From Gammaproteobacteria bacterium (GTDB taxonomy: Bacteria; Pseudomonadota; Gammaproteobacteria; HK1): a stretch of 24,090 bases of DNA. Where the stretch lies: NCBI GenBank assembly GCA_022822245.1, contig JAJECB010000361.1, positions 1 through 24,090 of the forward strand, given 5' to 3'. A program made the position numbers and the translations under genes. The stretch's first letter is position 1, and each line of letters starts with the position of its first letter. Shown in pieces: positions 3,881-22,403 of this stretch. The notes under the pieces were generated by a model. The model did no database searches, was not told the DNA's origin, and saw only the letters and a list, made by a program, of their open reading frames with translations.

Positions 3881-3903
3881 CATGTAGTACGCTGTACTAC
3901 ATG
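3881..3903. promoter_or_regulatory. Perfect inverted-repeat operator spanning the antitoxin start codon
   Basis: The arms CATGTAGTAC (3881-3890) and GTACTACATG (3894-3903) are exact reverse complements around the 3-base spacer GCT. The right arm ends in the antitoxin ATG (3901-3903). Ribbon-helix-helix antitoxins bind short palindromes in their own promoters, so this is the likely autoregulatory operator. No SD precedes the ATG (the nearest purine run, GGG, is about 20 bases away), so translation may be leaderless or the same dyad may form an RNA hairpin that hides the start. Confidence 0.75.
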
Positions 3904-4535: not shown

Positions 4536-4549
4536 AGGAAGACATTGCG

Positions 4550-5425: not shown

Positions 5426-5463
5426 CTGTTCCCGCTGCCGGTACAGGTACGAAGGGGACGGGC

Positions 5464-6269: not shown

Positions 6270-6355
6270 TGAGCTGCCGTCCGATCTTCGCCCTCGGTTA
6301 TCCCCGCCGGCTTTGCCGGAGTCGCCATGGTCCAGAGGGACTCCGTGGCGCCCCG

Positions 6356-7129: not shown

Positions 7130-7158
7130 GGAGAGCGTCCCTCGCTATGGCCGGCGAA

Positions 7159-7186
7159 ATTATGACGCAGCTTCATTGATTGCGAA
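7159..7186 (-). promoter_or_regulatory. Candidate promoter of the SDR gene
   Basis: On the minus strand TTCGCA (7186-7181) and CATAAT (7164-7159) are 16 bases apart, and the CATAAT lies about 30 bases before the SDR start in otherwise GC-rich DNA. This is a moderate sigma-70-like match. Confidence 0.35.
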
Positions 7187-7315
7187 CGGCTTCCGCGGAT
7201 CCATCCCGGTGCGCGGCGCGCTGGCGGTCCCCCGGGACCCGAGCAGGGCGGGCACATCACGAAGACCCGTGAGCGCCGCCGCCGCCCGGAGCGCCGAACT
7301 CTGAGATTGCGGCGG

Positions 7316-7897: not shown

Positions 7898-7914
7898 GGG
7901 TGGATTCTCCCGGG

Positions 7915-8124
7915 TCAGCGTGGGCGGGCGGAGCGGGGCGGGGCGGCTTCCGGCGCCCCTGCCGCCTCGAAGTGTCGGATCGCGGTCTCGAACTTGTCCC
8001 GGCAACCGGTATTGCAGAACCCGACGACCTTGCCGGCATGCTCGGTGAGCGAGTCCGCCTGTACCGGCTCTCCGGACCAGGGGCAGGTCTCGTTGATGCA
8101 GTCGGCGATATCGAGGTCGGGCAT
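7915..8124 (-). CDS. Small four-cysteine (YHS/TRASH-like) metal-binding protein
   Basis: A 69-residue protein with two cysteine pairs, C9-x4-C14 (DCINETCPWSG) and C37-x3-C41 (GFCNTGCRDKF), a layout typical of small zinc-ribbon or YHS/TRASH-like domains that bind a metal. The CPWSG.PV and VVGFCN.GCRDKF wording is shared by small proteins often mislabelled glutathione S-transferase. The ATG at 8124 has an excellent SD (GGAGG, 6 bases away), so the longer frame to 8160 was rejected. It lies 97 bases downstream of the dioxygenase and 17 bases upstream of the 193-residue protein, which suggests shared function such as metal supply or sensing (inference). Confidence 0.85.
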   Translation of the reverse strand: MPDLDIADCINETCPWSGEPVQADSLTEHAGKVVGFCNTGCRDKFETAIRHFEAAGAPEAAPPRSARPR

Positions 8125-8221
8125 GGTGTCCTCCGGGGTCCGGCGTCCGCAGCCCGGCACGGTAACCGGTTTGAACGCGGCGCGTCCACGACCCGACCGG
8201 GACCGAGTCCCGGGCGGGCAA

Positions 8222-9133
8222 TCAGAACGGAACGGAACCGCCCGCCGTCACCCGGTGCATGAGGCGGCGCTGCGGCCACTCGTAGTCGCGAAGCGCGACG
8301 TGCTGCACCGTGCAGTTGTCCCAGATGACGAGGTCGCCGACCCGCCACCGGTGCCGGTACCGGAACTCCGGCCGGATGATGTGGTCGGACAGCCGCTTGA
8401 TGAGCGCCACCGCCTCCTCGTCCGCCATCCCCTCGATACCGACGCACTCCCCTTCGCGCACGTAGAGGGCCTTCGCCCCGCTCACGGGATGGGTGCGGGC
8501 GACGGGATGGACCACGTCCGGATGGCGGGCGATCTGCTCCGGGGTCAGCTTGACCGGGCGCTTGACCCCCCGCTCCTTGGCGCTGAAGCGGTGCACCGCG
8601 CGAAGCCCCTCGATGCGTCCCCGGTCCGGCTCGGCGAGCGCCTCGAAGGCCGCGCGGGCGTTCGCGAACAGGGTGTCCCCGAGGTTCCGGACGCCGGCGC
8701 TCGGAACCTCGATTGCGTGCAGCGCGGTGCATCGGGGCGGGGTCGCGGTGTAGGACATGTCGGTGTGCCAGTGGCTGCCCGCGTCGGCGTACCCGATGCT
8801 GCGGCCGTCCTCGACGATGTTCGACACCACCAGCACCCCGGGGTGCCCGGGAAGGGCGTACTGGTCGAAGGCGTTCACCTCGACCGGGCCGAACCGCTCG
8901 CAGAAGGCGAGCTGGCGCTCCGGGCTCAGGCGCTGATCCCGGAACACGAGCACCCCGTGGTGGGCGAGGGCGCGGTCGATATCGGCGAACACGTCGTCCG
9001 GCAGCCGCGCCGCCAGATCGACCCCGGCGACCTCCGCCCCCGCGCCCTCCCCGCTCGGCCTCACCTCGAGCCCCGCCGCGCCACGACCCCCCGAGGGTCG
9101 GGACGCCGGTCCGGTCCGCTTCGCGGTCTTCAC
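8222..9133 (-). CDS. TauD/TfdA-family Fe(II)/2-oxoglutarate-dependent dioxygenase
   Basis: A 303-residue TauD/TfdA-type oxygenase. The iron-binding facial triad is visible: H123-T-D125 in GSHWHTDMSY and the distal H278 in TVQH. R290/R294 in RRLMHR would hold 2-oxoglutarate. Other family blocks are HGVLVFRDQ and RVGDLVIWDN. These enzymes hydroxylate a substrate next to a heteroatom, often releasing sulfite, a phenol or an amine. The GTG at 9133 was chosen for its strong SD (GAGGGGG); a second GTG at 9172 has none. It is divergent from the LLM oxidoreductase and leads the minus-strand set down to 7316. The substrate is unknown. Confidence 0.92.
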   Translation of the reverse strand: MKTAKRTGPASRPSGGRGAAGLEVRPSGEGAGAEVAGVDLAARLPDDVFADIDRALAHHGVLVFRDQRLSPERQLAFCERFGPVEVNAFDQYALPGHPGVLVVSNIVEDGRSIGYADAGSHWHTDMSYTATPPRCTALHAIEVPSAGVRNLGDTLFANARAAFEALAEPDRGRIEGLRAVHRFSAKERGVKRPVKLTPEQIARHPDVVHPVARTHPVSGAKALYVREGECVGIEGMADEEAVALIKRLSDHIIRPEFRYRHRWRVGDLVIWDNCTVQHVALRDYEWPQRRLMHRVTAGGSVPF

Positions 9134-9204
9134 ATCGTCCCCCTCGGTTCCCCGCGAGCTGACGCGCGGCACCCCCGCCGCCCTTCGCCTCCCGCACTTG
9201 CTTC

Positions 9205-9234
9205 ACAATAGCCGCGTCCGAACGCGGCCGGCAA
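9205..9234 (-). promoter_or_regulatory. Candidate promoter with an embedded dyad, TauD/LLM divergent region
   Basis: On the minus strand TTGCCG (9234-9229) and TATTGT (9210-9205) are 18 bases apart. The spacer is filled by a perfect inverted repeat, GCCGCGT (9211-9217) and ACGCGGC (9222-9228), with a 4-base centre. A regulator bound there would block the promoter of the dioxygenase set. No regulator gene is adjacent. Confidence 0.4.
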
Positions 9235-9311
9235 CCTGCCGCGCCGGGATCGGATCGGGGTCGCGCGGCGGCCGGACAACCCCGTGCCACAGATGCGAGG
9301 AGCGGGAGAAC

Positions 9312-10397
9312 ATGGACTTCGGCGTTTGCGCGATCACGAAGATCGACGACATCGGCCTCGCCGTCGAGGCCGAGAACCTGGGCTACTCCCATCTGTGGGT
9401 CCCGGACAGCCAGATGATCTGGTCCGACTGCTACGCCTTCCTGGCCCTCGCCGCCCGCGAGACCCGCACCATCCGGCTCGGGACCGGGGTGAGCGTCGCG
9501 GGCACCCGCAGCGCCCCGGTCACCGCCCACAGCATCGCGACCATCAACCGGCTCGCTCCGGGGCGGGTATTCCTCGGGATCGGTACCGGGAACACCGCGC
9601 AGCGCCTGATGGGCCAGCGTCCCATCCGATTCGCCGCGTTCGAGGAGTACGTGCGGGTGCTCCGCGGGCTCCTCGACGGCGAGGAGGTGGACTATGTCGA
9701 CCCGGGGGCCGATTCGGTGGGCCGAGCCCCCCGGACCATCCGCTTCGACATGCTCGACCTCGGGTTCATGCAGTTGGAACCGCGGATCCCGATCCACGTC
9801 TCGGGTTTCTACCACCGGACCCAACAGCTCGCGGGGCGCTACGGGGACGGGCTCGTCGTCTCCATCCCGCCCCACCGCGACTTCGTGACCCGCGCCCGCT
9901 CCCACGCGGCCCGGGGCGCGGCGGAGGCGGGGCGGGAGCTGCCGGCCGACTTCCAGCTCAGCTCCCTCACCACCGCAGTGGTGCTCGAGCCGGGCGAGAC
10001 CCTCGAATCGGAGCGCGCGATCCGGGACTGCGGGCCGTTCGTCGTGTCCTCGATCCACTACATCTACGAGAAGATCAAGGAGAACGGCGGCGAGCCGCCG
10101 CCCCACATGCGTCCCTTCTGGAAGAAGTACTGCCGCCTCGTCGAAGAGACCCCCGAGCGGAGCCGCCACCTTCGGGTCCACGCCGGTCACTGCACGTGGC
10201 TGCACCCCGACGAGGCCGAGTTCGTCACCCCGGAGCTCATCCGCACCACCTGCCTCGCGGGCACCCCGGACGAGCTCGTCGAGCAGATCCGCCACCTTGA
10301 CGAAGCGGGGCTCGACCACGTCATGCTCCTCCCCTCGCTCGAGACGCAGCGCCAGACCATCGCGGCGTTCTCGCGCAAGGTGATGTCCCGCCTCTGA
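9312..10397 (+). CDS. LLM-class flavin-dependent oxidoreductase (luciferase-like, Mer-like)
   Basis: A 361-residue luciferase-like TIM-barrel protein. It has MDFGVCAITKIDDIGLAVEAENLGYSHLWVPDSQ-type opening features (strand 1 and the D32 loop), IRLGTGVSV..TRSAPVTAHSIATINRLAPGR, then GRVFLGIGTGN (85-94), and a late CLAGTPDELVEQIRHL.EAGLDHVMLLP block typical of the family. It resembles the F420-dependent Mer-like group more than SsuD, but FMN use is also possible. The ATG at 9312 has the SD GGGAGAA close upstream; the frame extends to 9198 without support. It is divergent from the TauD-type dioxygenase, so the two may serve one pathway (inference). Confidence 0.92.
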   Translation: MDFGVCAITKIDDIGLAVEAENLGYSHLWVPDSQMIWSDCYAFLALAARETRTIRLGTGVSVAGTRSAPVTAHSIATINRLAPGRVFLGIGTGNTAQRLMGQRPIRFAAFEEYVRVLRGLLDGEEVDYVDPGADSVGRAPRTIRFDMLDLGFMQLEPRIPIHVSGFYHRTQQLAGRYGDGLVVSIPPHRDFVTRARSHAARGAAEAGRELPADFQLSSLTTAVVLEPGETLESERAIRDCGPFVVSSIHYIYEKIKENGGEPPPHMRPFWKKYCRLVEETPERSRHLRVHAGHCTWLHPDEAEFVTPELIRTTCLAGTPDELVEQIRHLDEAGLDHVMLLPSLETQRQTIAAFSRKVMSRL

Positions 10398-10444
10398 CTC
10401 CCCCGGCACGCCGAACCGGGGCGAGCCCCAGCGCAGCCGACCCG

Positions 10445-10497
10445 AGGCAGGTTCCTTCCGGAGCGGGTTGCACGAGCCGCGGAGGAAAGAGCCTGCC
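10445..10497. terminator. Imperfect inverted repeat between convergent genes
   Basis: GGCAGGTTCCTTCC (from 10446) and GGAGGAAAGAGCCTGCC (10481-10497) pair imperfectly, the outer GGCAGG/CCTGCC exactly. It lies between the ends of the LLM gene (+) and the MFS gene (-), where a terminator is expected. No T-run follows. Confidence 0.35.
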
Positions 10498-10553
10498 CCC
10501 AAGCCGGCGGGCCACGGCCCCCAACCGCTGTCCCGACTCCCCCCGGCCCCCGA

Positions 10554-11798
10554 TCAGCGCCGCCGCGCCTTTCCGGTGGTCAGCACCGTGAAGACGGTGG
10601 CCAGGCTCACCAGCGCCACCGTCCAGAACAGGCTTCCGGGATCGCTCCGATCGAGGAGGAACCCGAACATCACCGGCGCGACAATCCCGCCGAGGTTGAA
10701 GCCGGTCGAGACGAAGCCGAAGACCTTGGCGATGTCGCCCGGCGGTGACATCGACCGGATGAGCATGTCGCGCGATGGCGCGACCATGCCCGAGAAGAAG
10801 CCGGCGACGACGAAGAACCCCGCGACGACGGCGAGCGGGGGCCGCAGAGCGGCCACCGCACCGATGCATACCGCCACCATCACGATGCAAAGCGCCGCGA
10901 ACGCGTCGTGGCGACGCCGGATCCGGTCCGCGACCCAGCCGCCCGCAAGGACCCCGACCGGCGAAGTGAAGAGGTAGGCGCTGAGCACCGTCGTCGCCTC
11001 GGCGATCGGAGCGTCGTGGAGGAGGTGGAGGGCCGACACGCTGAACGTCTGGAGGCCGTAGCCGGAGACCGACATCCCGAAGAAGAACAGGGTTCCGAGC
11101 AGGATCGGCGCGCTGAGAAGCAGCCGAATGCCGGTGGTGCCGGCCGCCGCCGCGCCCGCCGCACCGGCACCGGCACCGTCTCCCCCGCCCGGGCGCTCCT
11201 TCAGCACGCGGCCGTTGAAGACCACCAGCAACCCCACCGCGAGGCCGACGCCACCGCACAGGGTGAGCGCCACACGCCAGTCCAGGAGTGCGGTCAGGGA
11301 CACCATCGTCACCGGGGCGACCGCGTTGCCCAGCATCCCCGCCGAGGTGTGGAAGGAGAACGCGCGCCCCATCCGGCGGGGGTTCACCGAGGCGTTGAGG
11401 AGCGAGTAGTCGGCGGGGTGATAGACGGAATTGGCGAGCCCCGCCACCGCCATCAGGGCCACCAGCGCCCCGTAGAACGGCGCAAGCCCTATGGCCACGA
11501 AGGCGGCCCCTTCGAGCAGCAGGCCGGCCGCGAGGATCCGGCGTGCTCCGAAGCGATCCACCGCGAAGCCGACCGGCACTTGGGTGCAGGCGGTGACGAT
11601 GCTGAAGACGCTGATCGCGAAGCCGAGCTCGGTGTACCCGACCCCGTAGACCTCGCGCAGGAGCGGAAAGAGGGGCGGAAGCAGCAGGAGGTAGAAGTGG
11701 CTCGTGAAGTGGGCGGAGCTGATGACCGCGACCGCCCGCGCGGACCCGTGGCGTTCCCCCGTCCTGGCAGTGCCTCGCGCTTCGGCCGTGACCGCCAT
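10554..11798 (-). CDS. Major facilitator superfamily transporter
   Basis: A 414-residue polytopic protein with about twelve hydrophobic segments in two halves. The MFS motif A is present as GFAVDRFGARRIL in the loop after helix 2, with a second-half counterpart GGWVADRIRRRHD. VYHPADYSLLN lies near helix 4, as in fosmidomycin-resistance-like exporters. A glycine- and alanine-rich cytoplasmic linker (GGGDGAGAGAAGAAAAG) separates the halves. An ATG at 11834 is also in frame, but TACACT directly in front of it looks like a -10 box, so the ATG at 11798 was preferred. It is divergent from the NIPSNAP gene. Substrate and direction of transport are unknown. Confidence 0.88.
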   Translation of the reverse strand: MAVTAEARGTARTGERHGSARAVAVISSAHFTSHFYLLLLPPLFPLLREVYGVGYTELGFAISVFSIVTACTQVPVGFAVDRFGARRILAAGLLLEGAAFVAIGLAPFYGALVALMAVAGLANSVYHPADYSLLNASVNPRRMGRAFSFHTSAGMLGNAVAPVTMVSLTALLDWRVALTLCGGVGLAVGLLVVFNGRVLKERPGGGDGAGAGAAGAAAAGTTGIRLLLSAPILLGTLFFFGMSVSGYGLQTFSVSALHLLHDAPIAEATTVLSAYLFTSPVGVLAGGWVADRIRRRHDAFAALCIVMVAVCIGAVAALRPPLAVVAGFFVVAGFFSGMVAPSRDMLIRSMSPPGDIAKVFGFVSTGFNLGGIVAPVMFGFLLDRSDPGSLFWTVALVSLATVFTVLTTGKARRR

Positions 11799-11834
11799 GA
11801 CCCCGCGACCCCATCCCCTTCGCTCCGACCGCAT

Positions 11835-11840
11835 AGTGTA
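11835..11840 (-). promoter_or_regulatory. Possible -10 element of the MFS gene
   Basis: TACACT on the minus strand abuts the more distal in-frame ATG at 11834 and lies 36 bases before the preferred start. No convincing -35 is visible in the GC-rich DNA upstream. Confidence 0.25.
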
Positions 11841-11958
11841 CGGGCCACCCGGACCGCGCCCGGGACCCGACCTGTCCGCCCGGCTGCGGTATGCTTTGCG
11901 GTTGACGCTACGAAGTGGCCGGACGGCGGCCGGACGAATTCATCCGGGGGGAGAGAAC

Positions 11959-12594
11959 GTGATCCACGAGCTTCGCACCTACACCCTGCGGGCCGGCACC
12001 GGCCCGACCGTGGCGAAGAACGCGGGCGAGGTCGGCCGCGCGATCCGCGGCGACGACTACGGGAAGCTGGAAGGCTACTGGCTGACCGAGATCGGCCCGC
12101 TCAACCAGGTCATGCACCTGTGGAGCTACGCCGACCTCAACGAGCGCCAGCGGCTCCGGGGCGAGCTCGCGAAGAACGAGCGGTGGGCGACGGAGTACAT
12201 CCCCCTCATCCGCGAGCACCTCGTCCGTCAGGACGTCCGGGTCCTCGAGCCCATTCTCCCGCTCAAGGCCCCGGAGTCCGAGGGCAACATCTACGAGTAC
12301 CGCAACTACCGCACCGCCCCGGGGCGGGTGCGCGAGTGGGCGAAGCACTTCCAGGACATCATGCCGGTGCGCGAGGAGTACTCGAAGAACGTCGGCGCCT
12401 GGATCACCGACGCGGGGCAGCCGAACGAAGTCTCGCATCTCTGGGCCTATCCGTCGGTGGACGCCCGCACCGAGCGCCGGGCGCAGGTGGCCGCGGACCC
12501 GCGCTGGAAGGAGTTCCTGGGGAAGGCGGGGCCGCTTCTCGAGGAGATGCACTCGACGATCCTGCTCCCGGCCGCGCACTCGCCCCTCAAGTAG
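11959..12594 (+). CDS. NIPSNAP-family protein with two NIPSNAP domains
   Basis: A 211-residue protein built of two ferredoxin-like NIPSNAP repeats. The first has VIHELRTYTLRAGT..YWLTEIGPLNQVMHLWSY; the second has NIYEYRNYRTAPGR..AWITDAGQPNEVSHLWAY, so the duplication is plain. NIPSNAP domains occur next to catabolic genes in bacteria, but their biochemical role is poorly known. The GTG at 11959 follows the SD GGGGGAGAG and begins exactly at the domain, so upstream open frame was discarded. A P-loop kinase-like gene follows 86 bases later. It is divergent from the MFS transporter. Confidence 0.9.
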   Translation: MIHELRTYTLRAGTGPTVAKNAGEVGRAIRGDDYGKLEGYWLTEIGPLNQVMHLWSYADLNERQRLRGELAKNERWATEYIPLIREHLVRQDVRVLEPILPLKAPESEGNIYEYRNYRTAPGRVREWAKHFQDIMPVREEYSKNVGAWITDAGQPNEVSHLWAYPSVDARTERRAQVAADPRWKEFLGKAGPLLEEMHSTILLPAAHSPLK

Positions 12595-12610
12595 GGCGGA
12601 GCGTAGCGGG

Positions 12611-12658
12611 GCCAAGACCGGGGCCGGGACCGGGGTCAGGGCCGGACCGAGACCGAGC
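12611..12658. repeat. Degenerate 12-bp tandem repeat
   Basis: Four units of about 12 bases run between the NIPSNAP and P-loop genes, e.g. GCCAAGACCGGG (12611-12622) and GCCGGGACCGGG (12623-12634), with later units more diverged. No stop-free small gene with a start and SD was seen here. Confidence 0.45.
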
Positions 12659-12680
12659 CCGCCCGGAGGGAGACGAAACG

Positions 12681-13556
12681 GTGCGTATGACCGCCCGTGA
12701 ATTCGAGGCGTGGCCGCACAAGGCGGTGACCCTGCTCGGCATGTCCGGGGTGGGCAAGACCACGCTCGCGAACCGCCTCCCCAAGAGCAACTGGTTCCAC
12801 TACTCCGGGGACTACCGGATCGGAACCCGCTACCTGGACGAGCCGATCGTCGACAACATCAAGCGTCAGGCGATGCGGGTCGACTTCCTGCGCGACCTCC
12901 TCCGCTCGGACTCGATCTACATCAAGAGCAACGTCACGGTGGACAACCTGCAGCCGGTCTCCACGTTCCTCGGCAAGATCGGCGACCCGGAGCACGGCGG
13001 CCTCAGCGTGGAGGAGTTCCGCCGCCGCCAGCGCCTCCACCACGATGCCGAGGTGGGCGCGATGAAGGACGTCCCCGGATTCATCGAGAAGAGCCGCGAC
13101 ATCTACGGCTACGACCACTTCGTGAACGACGCGGGCGGGAGCGTGTGCGAGATCGAGGACGCCTCCGTGATCCCGACCCTCGCCGAGCACACCCTCATCC
13201 TGTACCTCCGGGCCGACGAAGCGCTGGAGAGCGACCTGCTCGAGCGCCAGCGCATCGACCCGAAGCCCCTCTACTACCCGGAGGCGTTCTTCGCCGCGCA
13301 GCTCGCGGCCTACCTCGAGGAGCGGTCCCTCGAATCTCCGGCGGAGGTCGAGCCCGACGACTTCGTGCAGTGGGTGTTCCCGTCGCTGGTCGCCCACCGG
13401 CGGCCGCGCTACGAGGCGATCTCCCGGCGCCACGGCTACACCGTTGAAGCGCGGGCGGCGGAGGGGGTTCGCGACGAGGCGGACTTCGTGGAGCTCGTGG
13501 CGGGAATCCTGGAGGCGGCCTCCGCCGTGGCGACGGCCCGCGTGAGGAGCGTCTGA
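12681..13556 (+). CDS. P-loop kinase-like NTPase of unknown function
   Basis: A 291-residue protein with Walker A GMSGVGKTT (20-28) preceded by the strand AVTLL, followed by a substrate-proximal FHYSGDYRIGTRYLDEP block. Later NDAGGSVCEIED and HTLILYLRAD resemble the strands of small-molecule or nucleoside kinases, and SDLLERQRIDPKPLYYPEAF may be the lid. It is larger than adenylate-kinase-type enzymes and has a long central insertion (about residues 55-145). The GTG at 12681 is 10 bases from a GGAGGG; an ATG two codons later is the alternative. The next gene on the strand is metA, 139 bases downstream. The substrate is not known. Confidence 0.82.
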   Translation: MRMTAREFEAWPHKAVTLLGMSGVGKTTLANRLPKSNWFHYSGDYRIGTRYLDEPIVDNIKRQAMRVDFLRDLLRSDSIYIKSNVTVDNLQPVSTFLGKIGDPEHGGLSVEEFRRRQRLHHDAEVGAMKDVPGFIEKSRDIYGYDHFVNDAGGSVCEIEDASVIPTLAEHTLILYLRADEALESDLLERQRIDPKPLYYPEAFFAAQLAAYLEERSLESPAEVEPDDFVQWVFPSLVAHRRPRYEAISRRHGYTVEARAAEGVRDEADFVELVAGILEAASAVATARVRSV

Positions 13557-13602
13557 GCACGGCGGCCCACGCGCACGAGCGTTCGGTCCCGCGGTACCCG
13601 CC

Positions 13603-13628
13603 GGCCGGTCTCGCCCGCGAAACCGGCC
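13603..13628. terminator. Hairpin between the P-loop gene and metA
   Basis: GGCCGGT (13603-13609) and ACCGGCC (13622-13628) are perfect 7-bp arms with a 12-base loop. It could terminate the upstream gene or act in the metA leader. No SAM-riboswitch-like architecture was recognised in this 139-base gap. Confidence 0.3.
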
Positions 13629-13695
13629 CGGGCTCCGGCCCGGCGCCCCGCGTTACGATCGTCGCGATTCCCGACCCTGCCTGAACGAAGACACA

Positions 13696-14766
13696 ATGCC
13701 TCTCGTCGCCCATTCCGACCTTCCGACGTTCGACCGGCTCCGGGGCGAGGGGCACGAGATCCTCGATCCCGAGCGGGCGCAACGCCAGGACATCCGGGAG
13801 CTCCACATCGGGTTCCTCAACATGATGCCGGACGCGGCCCTCGCGGCGACGGAGCGCCAGTTCCTGCGGCTCGTCGGGGCCTCGAACCGGATCGCCCAGG
13901 TCTTCGTGCACCCGTTCACGATGGTCGGGGTGGAACGCGAGGGCGCGGCGCGCGAGTGGGTGGAGCGATTCTACGAGCCGTTCGAGCGCCTGAAGCGCGA
14001 GGGGCTCGACGCCCTGATCGTGACCGGCGCGAACGTCACCGAGGCCGACATCACCCGCGAGCCGTTCTGGGAGCCGCTCATCGAAGTCCTCGACTGGGGG
14101 CGGGAGAACGTCGCGTCGATGCTCTGCTCGTGCCTCGCGAGCCACGCCGTCTTCCAGTGGCTGCACGGGGTGCAGCGCACCCACCTGCCGGCGAAGCGGT
14201 GGGGGGTCTACTCGCATCGGGTGCGGGACGGCGCCCACCCCCTCGTCGCCGGGATCAATACCCGTTTCGAGACCCCGCACTCCCGGTTCAACGACGTGCC
14301 TCGCGAGGAGATGGAGGCGGCGGGCCTCAGGGTGCTCGTCGAGAGCGAAAAGGGCGGGGTCCTCGTCGCGACGAGCCCGGACGGCTTCCGCTTCGTCTAC
14401 TTCCAGGGGCACCCGGAGTACGACCGGGAGAGCCTCCTCAAGGAGTACAAGCGCGAGGTCGGGCGGTACCTCCGGGGCGAGTGCGAGGACTATCCGCCGC
14501 ACCCCGAGAACTACTTCGCGCCGCCCGTGGCGCAACGGTTCGCGGCCTACCGGGAGGAGGTGATGCGGGCGCGGGAATCCGGCACCGCGGCCCCCGACTT
14601 TCCGGAAGCGGAGGTGCTGCCCGAGCTCGACAACACGTGGACCGACACCGGCAAGGCCCTCGTCAACAACTGGCTCGGACTCGTCTACCAGCTCACCGAC
14701 TACGACCGGCGCCGCCCCTTCGCCGGCGGCGTCGACCCCGAGGACCCCCTCGGGCTCCGCGACTGA
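13696..14766 (+). CDS. metA: Homoserine O-succinyltransferase
   Basis: A 356-residue MetA-family enzyme, which transfers an acyl group from succinyl-CoA (or acetyl-CoA in some members) to homoserine, the first committed step of methionine synthesis in the cytoplasm. Family blocks are LHIGFLNMMPDAALAATERQF, LDALIVTGAN, and the catalytic GHPEYD with H239 and E241. The nucleophile aligns with C146 in CSCLASHAV. It is longer than E. coli MetA (about 309 residues) owing to a C-terminal extension (PENYF.., NNWLGLVYQLTDYD), as in other members of this gammaproteobacteria-type branch. The SD is weak (AACGAAG). Acyl-CoA specificity cannot be settled by eye. Confidence 0.93.
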   Translation: MPLVAHSDLPTFDRLRGEGHEILDPERAQRQDIRELHIGFLNMMPDAALAATERQFLRLVGASNRIAQVFVHPFTMVGVEREGAAREWVERFYEPFERLKREGLDALIVTGANVTEADITREPFWEPLIEVLDWGRENVASMLCSCLASHAVFQWLHGVQRTHLPAKRWGVYSHRVRDGAHPLVAGINTRFETPHSRFNDVPREEMEAAGLRVLVESEKGGVLVATSPDGFRFVYFQGHPEYDRESLLKEYKREVGRYLRGECEDYPPHPENYFAPPVAQRFAAYREEVMRARESGTAAPDFPEAEVLPELDNTWTDTGKALVNNWLGLVYQLTDYDRRRPFAGGVDPEDPLGLRD

Positions 14767-14794
14767 CCCCGCCGCGTTCGTGCGCGCGGGGCGC

Positions 14795-15916
14795 TCATCG
14801 GAGCGCGGCCACCACCCGCTCCTGGAAGGCCCGCACCGCGTCTTCCCACACCGGCGAGAGCACGCCGCCTCCCGCGGCGACGTCGGATGCGCGCCCCTGC
14901 TGGAGCCGTTCGAGCATGGCGTGGTCCTCGGCGTGCACCTTTCGCCAGAGGTTCGCGAGCTCCTCCGTTCGCGCGGCCGATTCCGGCCCCGATTCCGATC
15001 CGAGGCGGTAGACCGCGCGGCGCTGGAGGGTACGGTTCGGGGCGAGCGGCACGATGAGCTGCACGCCGACCTCGTCCGGGAGGTAGAGCCCGAACACGAA
15101 GTTGGGGAACGCGGTGAGGTAGCGGGAGTCGGCCGAGAGGGTGTCTTCCCGGGTCGCGTCGCCGGAGACGTCGACGGCGCATCCGAGACAGCCCCGGTCA
15201 TTCACGGTGTAGTGGTCGAGGAGAGGCTGCTCGGTGGTCGTCGCATGCACGAACTGGACGTGGTAGGGCTCGATGAAGTTCTCCAGCAGGAGCTTCCAGT
15301 TCGCGGCCACCTCGCCGAAGTCGATGGTGACGACATGGCGGACCCGGCCGGGGTCGACGCCCTCGAGCCGGCCTCGGAGCGGGGCGACGAACTCCTCGAA
15401 AGGGGGCGCGGCGCCGCTCGGGTTGACGAAGACCCAGTCGTGCCACGTCGCCGAGCGCACCGGCACGAGCCCGTGCCGCCCGCGGTCGAAGCCGGGAGGC
15501 ACCGCGCGCGGCTCCCGCCCACCGAAGTAGGGAGTGAGGCGGAGCGTGCCGTCGAGCCCGTACGTCCAGGAGTGATAGGGGCACCGGATCGCCCGCCCGA
15601 CATTTCCGGGGGCGTCGACGAGCTTGAGGTTACGGTGGCGACAAACGTTGTGGAAGGCCCGAACCCCGAGCTCGGCATCCCGCACGAGGAGGAGCGGCCG
15701 GCCCGCTACGGTGACCGGCGTGACGTCGCCGGGCCGGGCGAGCTCGTGCGCGAAGCCCGCGAAGACCCACGACTCGGTGAAGATCCGCTCGTTCTCGAGC
15801 GCGAAGAACGCCTCGCTCGTGTAGGCGGCGCCCGGAAGTCCGGCCGCCACCGGCCCCCCTGCCTCGAACCCGGCGAGCGCCTCGGCCCCGAGGATGGATT
15901 GCAGCGATTCACTCAT
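14795..15916 (-). CDS. Rieske 2Fe-2S non-heme iron oxygenase, alpha subunit
   Basis: A 373-residue Rieske-type oxygenase. The [2Fe-2S] ligands are C92/H94 in NVCRHRN and C112/H115 in RCPYHSWTYG. The mononuclear iron site has H219 and H224 in ENFIEPYHVQFVH, with the third ligand probably the Asp of EDHAMLERLQQGR (about 331). Such oxygenases hydroxylate or N-demethylate aromatic or quaternary-amine compounds, using electrons from a separate reductase; no reductase gene is in the window. The ATG has a good SD (GGAGG). It is the downstream partner of the Lrp/AsnC regulator (27-base gap) and is convergent with metA. The sequence style fits the amine-demethylating (CntA/GbcA-like) branch, tentatively. 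Confidence 0.92.
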   Translation of the reverse strand: MSESLQSILGAEALAGFEAGGPVAAGLPGAAYTSEAFFALENERIFTESWVFAGFAHELARPGDVTPVTVAGRPLLLVRDAELGVRAFHNVCRHRNLKLVDAPGNVGRAIRCPYHSWTYGLDGTLRLTPYFGGREPRAVPPGFDRGRHGLVPVRSATWHDWVFVNPSGAAPPFEEFVAPLRGRLEGVDPGRVRHVVTIDFGEVAANWKLLLENFIEPYHVQFVHATTTEQPLLDHYTVNDRGCLGCAVDVSGDATREDTLSADSRYLTAFPNFVFGLYLPDEVGVQLIVPLAPNRTLQRRAVYRLGSESGPESAARTEELANLWRKVHAEDHAMLERLQQGRASDVAAGGGVLSPVWEDAVRAFQERVVAALR

Positions 15917-15943
15917 GCCCGCCTCCCGAGTGTGCCGGCCCGA

Positions 15944-16486
15944 CTACGGCACGTGACGCTTGAGCAGGAACTGGTTCTTGAACATGCCGATCCGGGTCAT
16001 CACCTCGACGTGGGCGATGTCGGAATGACCGTGGATGTGCTCGTCGAGGAATAACGCGAGCTCGGTCTGCGCGTCGCACACGACCTCGACGAGCAGGTCG
16101 TATCGGCCACTCACCCACATGATGTAGACGACCGCCGGATGGGGCTCGAGCCGCTGCGCAAGCGCGGCGGGCACGGCTCCGGGCGCGGCCTTGACCCCGA
16201 GCATCGCGTCCGCCTCGTAGTCGACGGCCACCGGGTCCACCACGGCCACGATGCGAAGCATCCCCGCGTCTCGCATCCGGGTGACCCGGTTGCGCACGGT
16301 TCCACCCGATACGCCGAGCTGCTGGCCGATGACGTCGTAGGCGGCCCGCCCGTCGTCCCGGAGGAGCCGGATGATCTGCTGGTTGAGGTCGTCGGCGGGA
16401 GAGGAGAGGGGGGAGACGCCCTCGGCGGCATCGGCGCCGCCGTGCGCGGCGACCGCCCGCAATTCGTGGACCGTGGGCCGGGACAT
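15944..16486 (-). CDS. Lrp/AsnC-family transcriptional regulator
   Basis: A 180-residue regulator. A 30-residue N-terminal extension precedes the winged helix-turn-helix (DDLNQQIIRLLRDDGRAAYDVIGQQLGVSGGTVRNRVTRMRDAG, about 32-76), then IVAVVDPVAVDYEADAMLGVK leads into the RAM effector domain ending near 175 (IAHVEVMTRIGMFKNQ). These proteins form octamers and sense amino acids or amine metabolites. It is transcribed with the Rieske oxygenase and divergently from the GS-like ligase. The 185-base gap between carries dyads, one of them perfect and long-range, that probably bind it. Confidence 0.92.
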   Translation of the reverse strand: MSRPTVHELRAVAAHGGADAAEGVSPLSSPADDLNQQIIRLLRDDGRAAYDVIGQQLGVSGGTVRNRVTRMRDAGMLRIVAVVDPVAVDYEADAMLGVKAAPGAVPAALAQRLEPHPAVVYIMWVSGRYDLLVEVVCDAQTELALFLDEHIHGHSDIAHVEVMTRIGMFKNQFLLKRHVP

Positions 16487-16525
16487 GGCCTCGCCTCGTG
16501 GCTCCGGTGGAGGTCGGGGGCTGCC

Positions 16526-16647
16526 GCGGTTGTGGATATCGCGGTTCTTGTTCTATGCTTCTACCGAATCGGAAGGATCAAGTCAACCAGATTCATGATC
16601 CGTTTTTTTGGATTGGCTGAATCTGCGAATTCATCATCCACAACCGC
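16526..16647. promoter_or_regulatory. Long-range 12-bp inverted repeat in the Lrp/GS intergenic region
   Basis: GCGGTTGTGGAT (16526-16537) and ATCCACAACCGC (16636-16647) are exact reverse complements whose centres lie 110 bases apart, close to a whole plus half number of helical turns. One arm is near the Lrp gene start and the other near the GS-like gene start. An Lrp-type octamer could bind both and wrap or loop the DNA between. That the Lrp protein binds here is inferred. Confidence 0.6.
16588..16625. promoter_or_regulatory. Nested dyad upstream of the GS-like gene
   Basis: CAGATTCA (16588-16595) and TGAATCTG (16618-16625) are perfect 8-bp arms, and the inner ATCC (16598-16601) and GGAT (16610-16613) add further symmetry around a T-run (16603-16609). 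This AT-rich island in high-GC DNA is a likely binding site or promoter region for the divergent genes. A near-direct repeat ATTCATGATCC/ATTCATCATCC (16591 and 16629) overlaps it. Confidence 0.5.
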
Positions 16648-16671
16648 CGCCGTGACGGAGGGAAGCATCCG

Positions 16672-18102
16672 ATGAACGAGACACCATCGAACCCGGGAAG
16701 CCTGGCCGCCGCGCTGCCCGATGTCGCGCGCGTGCGCGAAGCCGCGGCGAAGCTCGCCGAGGCCGGAGTCCGCTACGTGTTCTCGTGCTGGATCGACCTG
16801 CTCGGGGTACCGAAGACCAAGCCGGTGCCGCTCAGCGATTTCGAGAACCTGTGCATGGGCCGGGGTCCGCAGTTCGCGGTCCACTCGGTCTCGTTCGTTC
16901 CCGAGCTCACCCCGGCCGACGCGGACCAGATCCCGGTGCCGGACCTCGACACCCTGGTCATCTGCCCCTGGGACCGCACCTGCGCATGGATGTTCGCGGA
17001 TCTCTGGTGGGAGGACGCGCCGTACAACCTCTGTCCCCGCCACACGCTCAAGCGGGTGGTGCGCGACGCCGCGGCGAAGGGGTTCGCCGGGTTCGCAGGC
17101 GTCGAGCCCGAGTTCATCGCCATGCGCTGGCAGGACGGACGGCCGATCAAGGCGTTCGACGACGACCCGCTTCCCGGCGAAGGCGTACGCCCGAGACGCC
17201 AGGCATTCGGCTACGACGCCGAGTACTCCATCGATTCGATGGGGTTTCTCGGCTCGCTCATCGACATCCTCGAGGAGCTCGGATGGGGGCTCAAGGACGT
17301 GGTCGCCGAGGGCGCCTACTCGCAGTTCGAGCTCGACTTCGGCTACACGGACGTCGTGCGGATGGCGGACCGGCTCGTGTTCCTGCGCGTGCTCCTCAAG
17401 GAGGTCGCGAAGAAGCACGGCATGTTCATCACCTTCATGCCCAAGCCCACCATCGGCGACTGGCGCTCGGGCGCGCACATCAACTACTCGATGCAGCGTA
17501 CCGACGCCCCGGGCGTGAACCTCTTCGAAGACCCGGAGGGCGGCGGCTGGGCGAACGCGGTGTACGGCGCGGTCGGAGGGCTCCTCCGCCACGGCGGGGC
17601 GCTCACCGCCATCGCCTGCTCGACGGTCAACTCCTACAACGGCCTCGTGCCCCGGGTCGGCGGATTCGAGGGGGGCACGGTGACCTGGGCGCCCACCCAC
17701 ATGACCTACGGCAACAACAACCGCTCGTGCATGCTGCGCCTGCCCCAGAACCGGTTCTGCATCGAGAACCGCGCCGCCGACATGTGCATGAACCCGTACC
17801 TCTCCCTCGGAATGACCACCGCCGCGACGGTCGCCGGGGTGGTCGAGGGCATCGACCCCGGGCCGCCCCTCGACCGGGACCTCTACACGCTCACCGACGA
17901 GGAGATCCGCGCGAGCGGCGGGCAGCGTCTGCCGCGGAACCTGCTCGAGGCGACCGAGATCCTGAGGCAAGACCCGATCGCCGCCGAGGTGCTCGGCCCG
18001 ACGATGCTGAGCTCCTGGCTGCGGTACAAGGTCGACGAGTGGGAGCGCTATCACCAGGCGGTGACGGACTGGGAGGTCGAGGAGTACCTGCGGCTCTACT
18101 GA
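16672..18102 (+). CDS. Glutamine-synthetase-like gamma-glutamyl ligase (GlnT-type)
   Basis: A 476-residue GS-fold ligase. GS motifs are present in order: E145/E147 in GVEPEF, EGAYSQFELDFG (213-224), FMPKP (255-259), SGAHINYS with H269 (266-273), NSYNGLVPR (320-328), NNNRSCMLRLP with R351, and CIENRAADMCMNPYLSLG (363-380). The lysine of the canonical NSYK segment is N323 here. True glutamine synthetases normally keep this lysine, so the substrate is probably an amine other than ammonia, as in gamma-glutamylmethylamide or GlnT-type ligases. Its stop overlaps the ATG of the next gene (TGATG). Regulation by the divergent Lrp protein is likely. Confidence 0.9.
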   Translation: MNETPSNPGSLAAALPDVARVREAAAKLAEAGVRYVFSCWIDLLGVPKTKPVPLSDFENLCMGRGPQFAVHSVSFVPELTPADADQIPVPDLDTLVICPWDRTCAWMFADLWWEDAPYNLCPRHTLKRVVRDAAAKGFAGFAGVEPEFIAMRWQDGRPIKAFDDDPLPGEGVRPRRQAFGYDAEYSIDSMGFLGSLIDILEELGWGLKDVVAEGAYSQFELDFGYTDVVRMADRLVFLRVLLKEVAKKHGMFITFMPKPTIGDWRSGAHINYSMQRTDAPGVNLFEDPEGGGWANAVYGAVGGLLRHGGALTAIACSTVNSYNGLVPRVGGFEGGTVTWAPTHMTYGNNNRSCMLRLPQNRFCIENRAADMCMNPYLSLGMTTAATVAGVVEGIDPGPPLDRDLYTLTDEEIRASGGQRLPRNLLEATEILRQDPIAAEVLGPTMLSSWLRYKVDEWERYHQAVTDWEVEEYLRLY

Positions 18103-19172
18103 TGACGGGCGCGCCGGTGAGCGCGCGGGAACGCACCGGAGGACGAGTCGAGGCGATGCCGGACCACGAGGTATTCGAGCTCGGCGAGGTGACACTGCAG
18201 TCCGGCGCCACCCTGCCCGACGCGAAGCTCGCCTTCAAGGCGTACGGCTCGCTCAACGCGGGCCGCGACAACGTCATCGTCATGCCCACGTTCTACACCG
18301 GCACCCACGTCCGCAACGAGGGGTACCTCCGCGCGCTGCCGGCGCTCGATCCGTCGCGCTGGTTCATCGTCTCGATCGACCTGTTCGGAAACGGCCTCTC
18401 GTCCTCGCCGAGCAATACCGCGCCGCCCTTCGACGGCCCGCGCTTCCCCGCCGTCACCCTCCATGACAACGTCGCGTGCCAGCACCGGCTGCTCGCCGGG
18501 GAGCTCGGCGTGAAGGGCGTCGCCCTCGTCTTCGGGTGGTCCATGGCCGGGTGCCAGGCGTACGAGTGGGGGGCGCAGTTTCCCGACCTCGTCGAGGCCA
18601 TCCTGCCGTTCTGCGCCTCGGCCCGGACCTCCCCGCACAACCAGGTGTTCCTCGAGGGCGTCAAGGCGGCGCTCGTGGCCGACGCCGCGTTCGCGGGCGG
18701 CGACTACCCGGCGCCGCCCGAGGCCGGCCTCCGGGCGTTCGGGCGGGTCTACGCGGGATGGGCGTACTCGCAGGCCTTCTATCGTGAGAGGCTCCACCGC
18801 GAGCTCGGGTTCGAGACCTTCGAGGAGCTGCTCGCCGACTGGGAACGCGACCATCTCGGGTGGGATGCGAACGATCTCCTCGCCAAGCTCCGGACCTGGC
18901 AGCTCGGCGACATCAGCGCCAACGATCGCTACCGGGGAGACTTCGAACGTGCGCTCGGGGCCATCCGGGCCCGGGCGATCCTCGTCCCGTGCACCACCGA
19001 TCTCTACTTCCCGCTCGAGGACAACGCCATCGAGGCCGAGCACCTGCCGAACGCCGAGCTTCGCCCGTACGCCTCCCCGTGGGGCCACTGCGTGGCCTCG
19101 CCCGGGCGCGTCGGGAGCGACTTCCTGCGCATCCTCAGCGGGTACGTGGCGGAGCTGCTCGGCGACGCTTGA
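18102..19172 (+). CDS. Alpha/beta-fold hydrolase, MetX-like superfamily
   Basis: A 356-residue alpha/beta hydrolase of the homoserine-acetyltransferase-like superfamily. The nucleophile elbow is GWSMAG with S147, the acid D300 in CTTDLYFP, and the base H329 in WGHC. The opening LAFKAYGSLNAGRDNVIVMPTFYTGTH matches the superfamily, but true MetX enzymes have GGSMGG at the elbow and a DLFP-type acid site, so it is more likely a hydrolase, such as an amidase or thioesterase, or a different acyltransferase. The ATG overlaps the GS-like stop by one base, so the two products are probably made together and act on related compounds. An alternative start is the ATG at 18156 (residue 19). Confidence 0.87.
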   Translation: MTGAPVSARERTGGRVEAMPDHEVFELGEVTLQSGATLPDAKLAFKAYGSLNAGRDNVIVMPTFYTGTHVRNEGYLRALPALDPSRWFIVSIDLFGNGLSSSPSNTAPPFDGPRFPAVTLHDNVACQHRLLAGELGVKGVALVFGWSMAGCQAYEWGAQFPDLVEAILPFCASARTSPHNQVFLEGVKAALVADAAFAGGDYPAPPEAGLRAFGRVYAGWAYSQAFYRERLHRELGFETFEELLADWERDHLGWDANDLLAKLRTWQLGDISANDRYRGDFERALGAIRARAILVPCTTDLYFPLEDNAIEAEHLPNAELRPYASPWGHCVASPGRVGSDFLRILSGYVAELLGDA

Positions 19173-19214
19173 CCGGTCCACGCCCGGCCCTGCCTGCGCT
19201 TTCGCTGGCAGCTC

Positions 19215-19229
19215 TCGCCCATCGGGCGA
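19215..19229. terminator. Short hairpin after the alpha/beta hydrolase gene
   Basis: TCGCCC (19215-19220) and GGGCGA (19224-19229) form a 6-bp stem with a 3-base loop in the convergent gap before the FMO-like gene. No T-run follows, so termination is only suggested. Confidence 0.25.
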
Positions 19230-19338
19230 ATCATGGGCGTTCCCGCGAAGTGGGCCGCATGCGACCGACCGGGCGGGCGGCGCGTTGCCCGGCGAGCCGC
19301 GCCGGCGCGCCAACGCGTGCCGCGCGGTTCATCGCCGT

Positions 19339-20589
19339 TCACCGACCGGCGGCGAGGTATCCCGCAATGTGAGCGGCGACGTGCCGGGCGTCGTCCCCGA
19401 CGCCGTACAGCAGGCCGGACTTTCGTTTCACCATCCAGTTGAGGCCGATGAAGTACAGACCGGGGACGGCGGCCGCGCCGCGGTCCGTGACCGGATACCC
19501 CATCTCGTCGCGCACGGGAAAGTCGATCCAGGAGAAATCGAAAGAGAACCCGGTGGCCCATACGATGGTGGTGACGTTCTCGTCCCCGAGGTCTATCGAG
19601 GGGCGGCACGGTACGGACCAGTCGCCTTCCGGTGGTTCGCCGTCGAGCTCCTCGTCGGTCGGGAGGGGTGCGTCGATGCCGTTCCTCTCCACGAACGCAT
19701 CCACCCCTTCCCGGAACGTGCGCGAGAACCGGTCGGCGTTCTCCATGTTGTCGCGGAGATCGTCGGCGAACCGCATCTTCTCGCCGTCCGCGGCCGTCAA
19801 CCTTCCGAGCAGCTCGATACCCTCGCGACGGAGGGAGTGCAGGCCGACCGCCTGTCCGCCATCGTGCCCGCTCGCCTGCACCTCGGCCCGGAAACGCGCC
19901 GCGGGAGACTCCAGCATGTCCGGAGTCCGATCGAAGAATCCGAGCTCGTCGAGCCACGCCACGCAGTCCCGCCCCCGGTAGCGGCGTGGAACACGCATCG
20001 CCCCGCCGGTGCTGAACAGCACCCGGCGGCCGGAAAGCCGCAGGTCCGAGGCAATCTGCACTCCCGTCTGACCCGAGCCGACGACCAGCACCGCACCGGG
20101 AGCGAGATCCCCGGGATTGCGGTAGGTCTCGGCATCGAGCTGCCGGATGCGAGGCGGCACGCGCTCGGCCAGCACCGGCCGGCGGGGCGTCTGCATCGTG
20201 CCGGTGGCGACCACCATCGCCGGGGCCTCGAGGGGTCCGTCGGTCGTATCGACGCGCAGCCGGCCCTTCGTGCCTCGACCGACACCGGTAGCCTCGACTC
20301 CGGTCCGGATCGGACAGCCGAAGTGCCCGGCCCAACGCGCAAGATACTCCGCGAACTCGTCGCGTCCCATGAACCCGTCCGGGTCGGGCCCGCGATACTC
20401 CGCGCCGGGAAGGCGGATCGTCCAGTTCGGGGTGACGAGGGTGAAGCTGTCCCATCGGCGCTTCCGCCAACTGTCCCCCAATATCCCCCGCTCCAGGACG
20501 ACATGGTCGATTCCGTGGCCCGAAAGGAAGTAACTGGTGCAAAGCCCGGCCTGGCCGGCGCCGATGATGATGACTTCCGGTTCCCGCAT
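19339..20589 (-). CDS. FMO-like flavin-dependent monooxygenase (NAD(P)-binding flavoprotein)
   Basis: A 416-residue two-dinucleotide-binding flavoprotein. The FAD site is VIIIGAGQAG (6-15), the second Rossmann motif is VVGSGQTGVQIASDL (169-183), and the linking ATG is at 128-130. The closing VWATGF block is typical of the family. It resembles flavin monooxygenases and Baeyer-Villiger-like enzymes that oxidise soft nucleophiles or carbonyls with NADPH and O2. The FxGxxxH BVMO/FMO fingerprint is not obvious. The ATG at 20589 starts the FAD strand directly; an open frame to 20817 is not protein-like and was dropped. It sits alone on the minus strand, 130 bases from the next gene. Confidence 0.9.
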   Translation of the reverse strand: MREPEVIIIGAGQAGLCTSYFLSGHGIDHVVLERGILGDSWRKRRWDSFTLVTPNWTIRLPGAEYRGPDPDGFMGRDEFAEYLARWAGHFGCPIRTGVEATGVGRGTKGRLRVDTTDGPLEAPAMVVATGTMQTPRRPVLAERVPPRIRQLDAETYRNPGDLAPGAVLVVGSGQTGVQIASDLRLSGRRVLFSTGGAMRVPRRYRGRDCVAWLDELGFFDRTPDMLESPAARFRAEVQASGHDGGQAVGLHSLRREGIELLGRLTAADGEKMRFADDLRDNMENADRFSRTFREGVDAFVERNGIDAPLPTDEELDGEPPEGDWSVPCRPSIDLGDENVTTIVWATGFSFDFSWIDFPVRDEMGYPVTDRGAAAVPGLYFIGLNWMVKRKSGLLYGVGDDARHVAAHIAGYLAAGR

Positions 20590-20719
20590 GGGTTCGTGTT
20601 TCCCCGGCAGCGCGCGTTGTGAATGTTCCACGGCACGCAGCGTTCTCTGTCGAAGTCTCCGCTCTCCGGGTAGGAGGGGTGCGCAGCCGCGACTCAAGAG
20701 CGCGTACGTGCGCCCGAGC

Positions 20720-22336
20720 TCAGCCGCCGATCCTCTTGCGCAAGCGGAATTGATTCCGGCCTTGGTCGCGCCGGTATCGCATCTCGTCGACATAGGTGCG
20801 CGCCAGGTGCAAACCAAGCTCGTCCATCACCGTCTCCTCCCCGATCGTGTCCGGACCCGGTTGGAAAAAGGACGCTCCGGCTTCGAGCTCGCCTCCGTCG
20901 TCGATGGTCCGGATCTCGAGGCTGCGGGTCTCCTCGCTCATCTCGAGGTGGACTTCGATCCGGTGCGCGCCGGCACCGCCAGAGCCGTGTTCGGCGATGT
21001 ACATGAGGAGCTCCTCGATGCAAAGCTGCACCTGGAACCGGTCCTCGTGCGGAAACCCGTTCCGCTCGGCGAAGTCCTCCACCGCTTCCCCGACCCGTTC
21101 GAGCTCAAGGCTTGCATTGCGGATGGCGAGGCTGAGGACGTGAGGCGGTTCCCGCTCCGGCTCCGAGGGCGTTTCCCGGCCGCCGCCGTCACCGCGCGAC
21201 CCGCTCCCGTTCGAAATCTCGCCGGCCAATGCCCCGGACGGCCCCCCGCCGCGCACGAGTGCGTTCAGCGCCGCGACATCGAGCGCGGGGCGGATCGAGT
21301 CCTTTGCGCTCCTCGGCGGCCAGTGCAGGTTCCCGTCCTTGAGGATGAGGCGCTTGACCGCGTTCGTCAGGTCGACCACTTGCGGCATGCGACGCACGAG
21401 GTCGAACGTCTGTGCATGCTCCGGGAGGCGCAGGTGCCGGTAGAGCACCGGATAGGGCACGACGTCGTCACCGGCGAGGCCGAAGACGTCCATCGGCGAA
21501 GCCGGATCTTCCGGCGAAAGCCCCGCGGCGCGGAGCAGGCCGGCCAGTGCCTCCCGACTTGTCCGGCTCTCGTCGAGCCCGTCTCCCATCCTGCACAAGG
21601 CGCCCAGCAGGGCGAAGTAGTCCGGGTCCGGCGGCTGGGTGAAGCTCCAGAGCGGGCGCATCGGGTCGGTGAGGTAACGCACTTCGCCGCCGCGATGAGG
21701 CCGCTGCATGACGGCGTTGCGGTGAGGGAAGCGGTCGAAGAGGAGCAGCGTCTCGGTGTGCTCGATCGCGGCCCTGACGATCGACCAGCTCACGAACTGG
21801 TTGATCCGGCGCCGGTCGGGCGGTGCTTCGGCGATGAGGTCGGCGCTCCAGCGAGCAAATTTCTCGATGGACAGCTCCTGGAACTGCAGGTTCTCCACGT
21901 GGACAAGCGGAAGATAGATCCAGAAGCGCTCGATGACGTTGTAGTGCGCAAACTCCCGGCCCGCCTCGCAGGCCTGCCAGGACAACGAGGCGGCAAGGGA
22001 GTCGTTCGCGTAGGCCAGCGCCGTCCCGCGATAGACGCCTCGTGGGAATTGATCGAGGACGATCAGCCTTGCCAGCAAGCCCTTCGGCGTGTCCCAGACC
22101 GGGTCGCGGAAGAAGCGGTCCGGTCCTTCGCGGTGCATCTGTTCGCACCACTCGCGCTGCGCCCGAAGAATGTTCGGATCTTCGGCGCTCCTCGCGAACG
22201 GTCCGAGCCGCCATCTCCGCATCCCCTGCTGCCAGTTCCGGCGGGAGGCATCGGACGCCGTCCGCAGTCGGCCGAGCCAGAAGTCCAGCACCGCCTCCGG
22301 GGTTCGTTCCGCAATGGCAACGTTGGCGGCGGGCAT
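20720..22336 (-). CDS. DUF924-like domain fused to a degenerate HATPase domain
   Basis: A 538-residue fusion. Residues 14-222 match DUF924: PEAVLDFWLG, LLARLIVLDQFPRGVYRGTALAYAND, IYLPLVHVENLQ and FDRFPHRNAVMQRP. A middle region (about 230-370) has LRRMPQVVDLTNAVKRLILKDGN and is unassigned, followed by a low-complexity G/S/E linker. Residues 400-535 look like an RsbW-type GHKL ATPase: N-box-like QLCIEELLMYIAEH (437-450), TIDDGGELEAG (478-487) and ETVMDELGLHLARTYVDEMRYRR (501-523). The asparagine of the N-box appears missing (LLMYIAEH), so ATP binding is uncertain. No SD precedes the ATG; a strong promoter lies at 22414-22441. DUF924 function is unknown. Confidence 0.85.
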   Translation of the reverse strand: MPAANVAIAERTPEAVLDFWLGRLRTASDASRRNWQQGMRRWRLGPFARSAEDPNILRAQREWCEQMHREGPDRFFRDPVWDTPKGLLARLIVLDQFPRGVYRGTALAYANDSLAASLSWQACEAGREFAHYNVIERFWIYLPLVHVENLQFQELSIEKFARWSADLIAEAPPDRRRINQFVSWSIVRAAIEHTETLLLFDRFPHRNAVMQRPHRGGEVRYLTDPMRPLWSFTQPPDPDYFALLGALCRMGDGLDESRTSREALAGLLRAAGLSPEDPASPMDVFGLAGDDVVPYPVLYRHLRLPEHAQTFDLVRRMPQVVDLTNAVKRLILKDGNLHWPPRSAKDSIRPALDVAALNALVRGGGPSGALAGEISNGSGSRGDGGGRETPSEPEREPPHVLSLAIRNASLELERVGEAVEDFAERNGFPHEDRFQVQLCIEELLMYIAEHGSGGAGAHRIEVHLEMSEETRSLEIRTIDDGGELEAGASFFQPGPDTIGEETVMDELGLHLARTYVDEMRYRRDQGRNQFRLRKRIGG

Positions 22337-22403
22337 ATCAAAAGTCGCGGGTGGAGGCGGACGAGACCCCGGAACTCTTCATCTGTATCTATATTTCTAC
22401 CCT

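Follow-up and report, generated by a model that had tools for sequence, protein, structure and literature searches.

We analysed a 24,090-nucleotide stretch of DNA (contig JAJECB010000361.1 of assembly GCA_022822245.1, Gammaproteobacteria bacterium; hereafter the window), whose minus strand carries a gene for a DUF924 domain fused to an RsbW-like HATPase domain with an altered N-box. A first-pass annotation made from the sequence alone had singled out this open reading frame (ORF) and proposed that DUF924 serves as the input, and the HATPase fold as the output, of a sensor or partner-switch protein. The ORF is real, and its 538 residues are arranged as follows.

20720..22336, minus strand: whole ORF, 538 aa, DUF924-middle-linker-RsbW-like HATPase (ORF call, Pfam, homologues)
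21662..22291, minus strand: DUF924 domain, residues 16-225 (Pfam)
21251..21661, minus strand: middle domain, residues 226-362, conserved, helical, weakly EF-hand-like (conservation in long and short forms, structure model)
21143..21250, minus strand: variable linker, residues 363-398 (low predicted local distance difference test score, pLDDT; ratio of nonsynonymous to synonymous substitution rates, dN/dS)
20723..21142, minus strand: RsbW-like HATPase_c_2 domain, residues 399-538 (Pfam, fold matches, dN/dS)
20999..21013, minus strand: degenerate N-box E442-L-L-M-Y446, with Tyr where the Mg-ligand Asn would stand but the base Glu retained (profile alignment)

Pfam places DUF924 (PF06041) at residues 16-225 (E 3.5e-32; 112.4 bits against a gathering cut-off of 27), close to the 14-222 first claimed, and HATPase_c_2 (PF13581) at residues 412-534 (E 4.9e-15; 56.1 bits against 27.4), within the claimed region of about 400-538. 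Between the two domains there was no Pfam match at E≤1, and residues 365-396 of the linker had a pLDDT below 50 in the structure model. By the first-pass description, which is no formal criterion, DUF924 is usually a stand-alone protein of about 180-200 residues, from which the window protein departs with 538 aa and two more domains. The DUF924-RsbW-like fusion is a domain architecture not seen before, in which one active-site residue is consistently replaced; in the open-licence literature we found no paper naming DUF924 or PF06041 and no description of the fusion.

Conservation of the fusion

A whole-protein search returned 169 homologues over threshold and a profile-based search 339 proteins; the best-scoring 120 of each were examined, so both sets lean towards their queries. 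The fusion is conserved and no one-off: both domains were present in 108 of the best 120 of 169 (query included) and in 116 of the best 120 of 339, the latter including a larger branch with Asn in the N-box (the Asn form). A profile built from the fusions' own domain detected the HATPase, whole or in part, in 109 of the first 120. The gene was also a single open frame at ten further loci, where frames were picked as ORFs by the gene caller. The other 11 of the first 120 were without HATPase: six were short forms (P0116-P0121, 361-365 aa; five aligned) that end after the middle domain and are apparently complete, and five diverged or ended early. One more homologue ended inside the HATPase. None of P0116-P0121 was recognisable among the loci from wider genome searches.

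A stop or frameshift between the halves had been named at the outset as a sign that the fusion might be spurious. Some homologues are broken: L011 matched in two frames, with the change near residue 204, inside DUF924, and L010 kept only residues 3-220, beside a rearrangement in otherwise syntenic DNA. These broken copies are no argument against the fusion being the usual form of the family. In L010, from an Immundisolibacterales metagenome-assembled genome (MAG), positions 7946-8653 correspond to 21678-22382 of the window, the first part of the fusion gene being inverted and cut; window positions 14775-21677 (the rest of the fusion gene and a flavoprotein gene) had no blastn match there. Another homologue, P0101, follows the family sequence to about residue 335, after which it matches PF01409 (tRNA synthetase); it is probably an assembly chimera.

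The N-box of the RsbW-like domain

The C-terminal domain had been read as GHKL-like, and its model has a predicted RsbW/SpoIIAB fold, with matches to RsbW, UsfX and SpoIIAB, UsfX being among the best; Pfam HATPase_c_2 also scored above cut-off. The reported DDGG (G1) and LGLHLARTYVDE (G2) segments are both present. In a profile alignment to B. subtilis RsbW, Tyr446 sits under the Asn of SEACTN, which bears out the earlier remark that there is no clear N-box Asn; Glu442 occupies the base position and His450 the His position. SpoIIAB uses Asn50 to chelate Mg and Glu46 as its catalytic base, with nucleotide contacts from His54, Gly107 and Gly109 (PMC10345196).

Among the homologues listed, the first set supplied 109 domains. 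The base Glu (E442) was Glu in 109/109, the G1 Asp (D479 in the window protein) was kept in 101/108 and the second G2 Gly (G508) in 108/108; the first G2 Gly, which is Glu506 in the window protein, was Gly in 86/108. At the N-box position, 108 domains were readable, with Tyr in 96 and Asn in 5. An enlarged set of 122 domains (121 readable) gave Tyr 96, Asn 15, His 4, Thr 3, Phe 1, Ser 1 and Gly 1. The domain had been described as possibly non-ATP-binding. Because the family as a whole retains the base Glu, the G1 Asp and the second G2 Gly, “kinase-dead” suits it better than “non-ATP-binding”; for the window protein this preference is less sure, because its first G2 Gly is Glu506.

As a control, 27 of 30 HATPase loci from ten host genomes were taken, yielding 26 usable domains. 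All 21 non-fusion domains (20 distinct) had Asn, whereas the five fusion domains within the sample had Tyr (4) or His (1). Thus, within this sample, the N-box change is specific to the fusion family. Scores against the NCBIfam RsbW equivalogs lay far under cut-off (PRK04069, 14 bits against 145; TIGR01924, 11.9 against 155.05), and the RsbA anti-sigma family NF041045 gave 18.2 bits against a subfamily cut-off of 210.

In CapK, phosphorylation reportedly fell strongly when a conserved active-site Asn was mutated (PMC13373217); we infer that this residue, for which the source gives two numbers, is the N-box Asn. A study of Mycobacterium smegmatis reports no phosphorylation of RsfB by RsbW1 or RsbW3 and assigns RsbW1 an anti-sigma role (PMC7693655). 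An RsbW-like output without kinase activity is therefore plausible and has precedent.

The fusion shares its predicted fold, G1 Asp, second G2 Gly and base Glu with the RsbW/SpoIIAB anti-sigma factor kinases (PF13581), but differs from them by its sensor-like N-terminal half and, in most members seen, by Tyr in place of the N-box Asn. UsfX and M. smegmatis RsbW1 and RsbW3 provide a precedent for an RsbW fold without kinase activity on a STAS partner; they are single-domain proteins of other organisms, beside sigma or STAS genes (PMC7693655). Rv1364c (3ke6) and CapK likewise carry an RsbW-type domain within a multi-domain signalling protein, but their other domains are sensor/PP2C/STAS or helix-turn-helix/STAS and not DUF924, and CapK, unlike the Tyr-form fusions, keeps a conserved active-site Asn (PMC13373217).

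A search with the C-terminal domain alone, word-based and of limited sensitivity, gave only two hits that might be stand-alone relatives, one of 157 aa (2,381-base contig) and one of 94 aa (13,677-base contig). The nearest non-fusion HATPase_c_2 domain was in L066, where it scored 165 bits against the fusion profile, the runner-up reaching 113, and the gene directly before it reads as a receiver-PP2C (RsbU-like) gene. An HATPase of the L066 type is a possible source of the fused domain; tree support for one fusion group was 63.

Tree and selection

A tree of 61 proteins was built by a quick method from the DUF924 and middle columns only, leaving out the N-box trait, with Shimodaira-Hasegawa-like approximate likelihood ratio test (SH-aLRT) support and a midpoint root. 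An Asn-form branch (14 Asn, 3 Thr) was sister to the short forms. The second large branch held 30 Tyr, 7 other and 1 Asn, with His, Asn, Ser and Gly at or near its base. Tyr requires at least five changes on this tree, so its gain or loss happened repeatedly. The simplest reading of these sequences would be an Asn-type ancestor, with Asn lost early in the Tyr branch. The short forms, on a root set by midpoint only, may have lost the HATPase or may be a form older than the fusion.

Selection was estimated over eight pairs by simple Nei-Gojobori counts, uncorrected for GC bias. The dN/dS ranged over 0.10-0.27 in DUF924, 0.19-0.59 in the middle domain, 0.33-1.73 in the linker and 0.21-0.41 in the HATPase. 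DUF924 had the lowest ratio of all parts in 6/8 pairs. With ratios below those of the linker in 7/8 pairs, the HATPase domain is evidently maintained.

The DUF924 and middle domains

In a fold comparison, the predicted DUF924 part agreed with the solved member Atu0120 (2i6h). Nine ordinary DUF924 rows were aligned with the fusions, of which three were unusable; the core motifs DQF.R, RG, H.E and RFP.RN are common to the fusions and the remaining six. The fusion version differs from the family in running about 30 residues over the 180-position model, in having, among the aligned rows, Ser, Gly, Thr or Cys where DQFxRN has Asn, and in adding two further domains. At least one other DUF924 gene was present in each of the seven fusion-bearing genomes checked.

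The middle region had been called unassigned. It has no Pfam match, but it is a conserved domain, common to the fusions and their HATPase-less relatives of 361-365 aa, as the alignments of long and short forms show. For residues 226-365 no Pfam family was found at E≤10, EF-hand included, in a search whose HMMER filters drop most matches above about 0.1. Modelled alone, residues 226-366 reached a pLDDT of 86.9, and the model matched the EF-hand pair fold weakly. EF-hand loops have Glu at position 12. By eye this Glu is missing from the loops of the middle domain. A true calcium EF-hand is without sequence support and has weak fold support.

Neighbouring genes and available partners

The fusion gene is followed by a frequent neighbour:

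19339..20589, minus strand: flavin monooxygenase-like gene (MSMEG_0569-like), downstream of the fusion with a 130 bp gap (TIGR04046 score, recurrence)

A gene of this type lies 12-130 bp after the fusion in 7 of the 12 loci with room for it (the window, L001, L002, L003, L007, L040 and L041) and is absent in the other five (L004, L005, L006, L011 and L039). It is likely an operon partner. The window copy scored 421.3 bits against TIGR04046, below the cut-off of 498.35, and with the score under the family cut-off we did not use the MSMEG_0569 and Nit1C/cyanide links. Upstream of the fusion in the window is a PhyH-type dioxygenase gene (Pfam), matched only in loci of G007.

SpoIIE-type and STAS-domain genes were present in 9/9 host genomes searched, and in G192, G005, G286 and G395 STAS, SpoIIE-type and HATPase matches lie within about 2.5 kb. 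Partner-switch machinery is therefore available in trans. The STAS gene of L004 is the only one seen near a fusion.

Proposed mechanism and alternatives

Computation yielded the architecture, the predicted fold, the N-box replacement, the selection, the tree and the frequent neighbour. Our preferred reading, to which we assign a probability of roughly 0.45, is a conserved three-part regulatory protein whose N-terminal half senses and whose RsbW-like domain binds or releases a target without phosphorylation. The DUF924 and EF-hand-like half would sense a ligand or partner, and the flexible linker would relay this signal, opening or closing the RsbW-like domain. That domain would bind in trans, its likeliest target being a STAS protein or a sigma factor. 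In the Tyr branch the target would be held or released without phosphorylation, because most members seen have Tyr in place of the Mg-binding Asn; the Asn-form branch may still be a kinase.

Several observations weigh against this reading. Between the window and L001, the HATPase was less constrained than the linker (dN/dS 0.41 against 0.33). The invariant Glu and the kept G1 and G2 residues could mean that some catalysis survives. In the window protein the first G2 Gly is lost (E506) and lid residues 499-503 have a pLDDT below 50, making nucleotide binding uncertain. The frequent neighbour is an oxidoreductase and no regulator, a scan of window ORFs turned up no STAS, PP2C or sigma gene, and the STAS gene of L004 (4972-5838, an ORF of 288 aa whose STAS domain is C-terminal) lies about 2 kb upstream of the fusion and is not adjacent.

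The main rival is that DUF924 is catalytic and shares a pathway with the flavin monooxygenase, the RsbW-like domain only dimerising or sensing nucleotide to regulate it. The low dN/dS of DUF924, the polar motifs it shares with six ordinary DUF924 proteins, the flavoprotein gene next on the same strand in 7/12 loci and the apparently complete forms without HATPase all fit such an enzyme. Catalysis by DUF924, however, found no support in this analysis, the flavoprotein neighbour is missing at 5/12 loci, and in 2/8 pairs the HATPase was slightly more constrained than DUF924; we consider this explanation doubtful.

We consider it unlikely that the HATPase of the Tyr form still works as a serine kinase on a STAS protein, as an ordinary RsbW-type enzyme with a new sensor in which Tyr, another residue or water organises the Mg. 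The invariance of E442, retention of the G1 Asp and second G2 Gly, purifying selection and the canonical N-box of the Asn-form branch would suit a working kinase, but the Mg-ligand Asn was present in 21/21 controls, and mutation of a conserved active-site Asn in CapK is reported to reduce phosphorylation strongly (PMC13373217). That the HATPase half is a functionless, decaying passenger kept by fusion to a useful DUF924 half is highly improbable: HATPase-less short forms exist and in a few homologues a frameshift or truncation falls before the domain or within it, but selection (dN/dS under that of the adjoining linker in 7/8 pairs) disfavours it, the domain is still encoded, whole or in part, in 109 of the best 120 of 169, and one residue is consistently replaced with no scattered loss.

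A regulator that binds and releases its target could be taken further, into a joint reading that we hold only tentatively and think rather improbable as a whole. DUF924 would be a signalling input, and the Tyr-form fusions a new class of phosphorylation-free partner switch that arose from an Asn-form kinase within one family branch, spread horizontally among uncultured, apparently host-associated bacteria and is often tied to a flavin monooxygenase pathway; the switch itself would be nucleotide binding with Tyr in the Mg site.

The solved DUF924 structure 2i6h carries the title “protein of unknown function”. That DUF924 is stably fused to a switch domain whose workings are well understood hints that it, or its ligand, takes part in signalling, and the binding target of the switch domain offers a direct test. 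With Asn, Tyr and mixed N-boxes, a single tree of the family may offer a natural series from a kinase switch to a non-kinase switch, in a fusion that occurs in scattered bacteria known mainly from metagenomes.

Distribution

A pattern scan of one genome per species gave eleven loci, all in MAGs by title, from Defluviicoccus, Rhodobacteraceae, Rhodospirillaceae/-ales, other Alphaproteobacteria and Immundisolibacterales. Among the matches listed, further named homologues came from MAGs of Gammaproteobacteria, Gemmatimonadetes, Deltaproteobacteria, Acidobacteria and Boseongicola. At E limits of 1e-20 to 1e-60, and with the query genome included in each count, occurrence around G001 was patchy: 3/6 genomes in the family, 3/27 in the order, 3/385 in the class and 1/398 in the phylum. 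In other orders the counts were 1/341 (that of G003), 3/11 (G005), 1/14 (G006) and 1/17 (G007, a truncated copy). All 106 plasmid records that matched had less than 60% identity, and none covered 80% of the query. Judging by the titles, bin names like RHO and COS hint at metagenomes of reef sponges; one study is reported to cover about 1200 sponge MAGs (PMC8163846).

Two family copies per genome were present in G001 (L029, L032) and G395 (L036, L037); in G001 the flavoprotein gene lies beside only one of the two. The rest of the window, from 598 to 19172, carries mostly catabolic and transport genes by Pfam and NCBIfam, including a sugar-type ABC transporter, a TauD dioxygenase, luciferase-like and Rieske oxygenases, a two-domain NIPSNAP protein, a glutamine synthetase relative and a MetX-like hydrolase.
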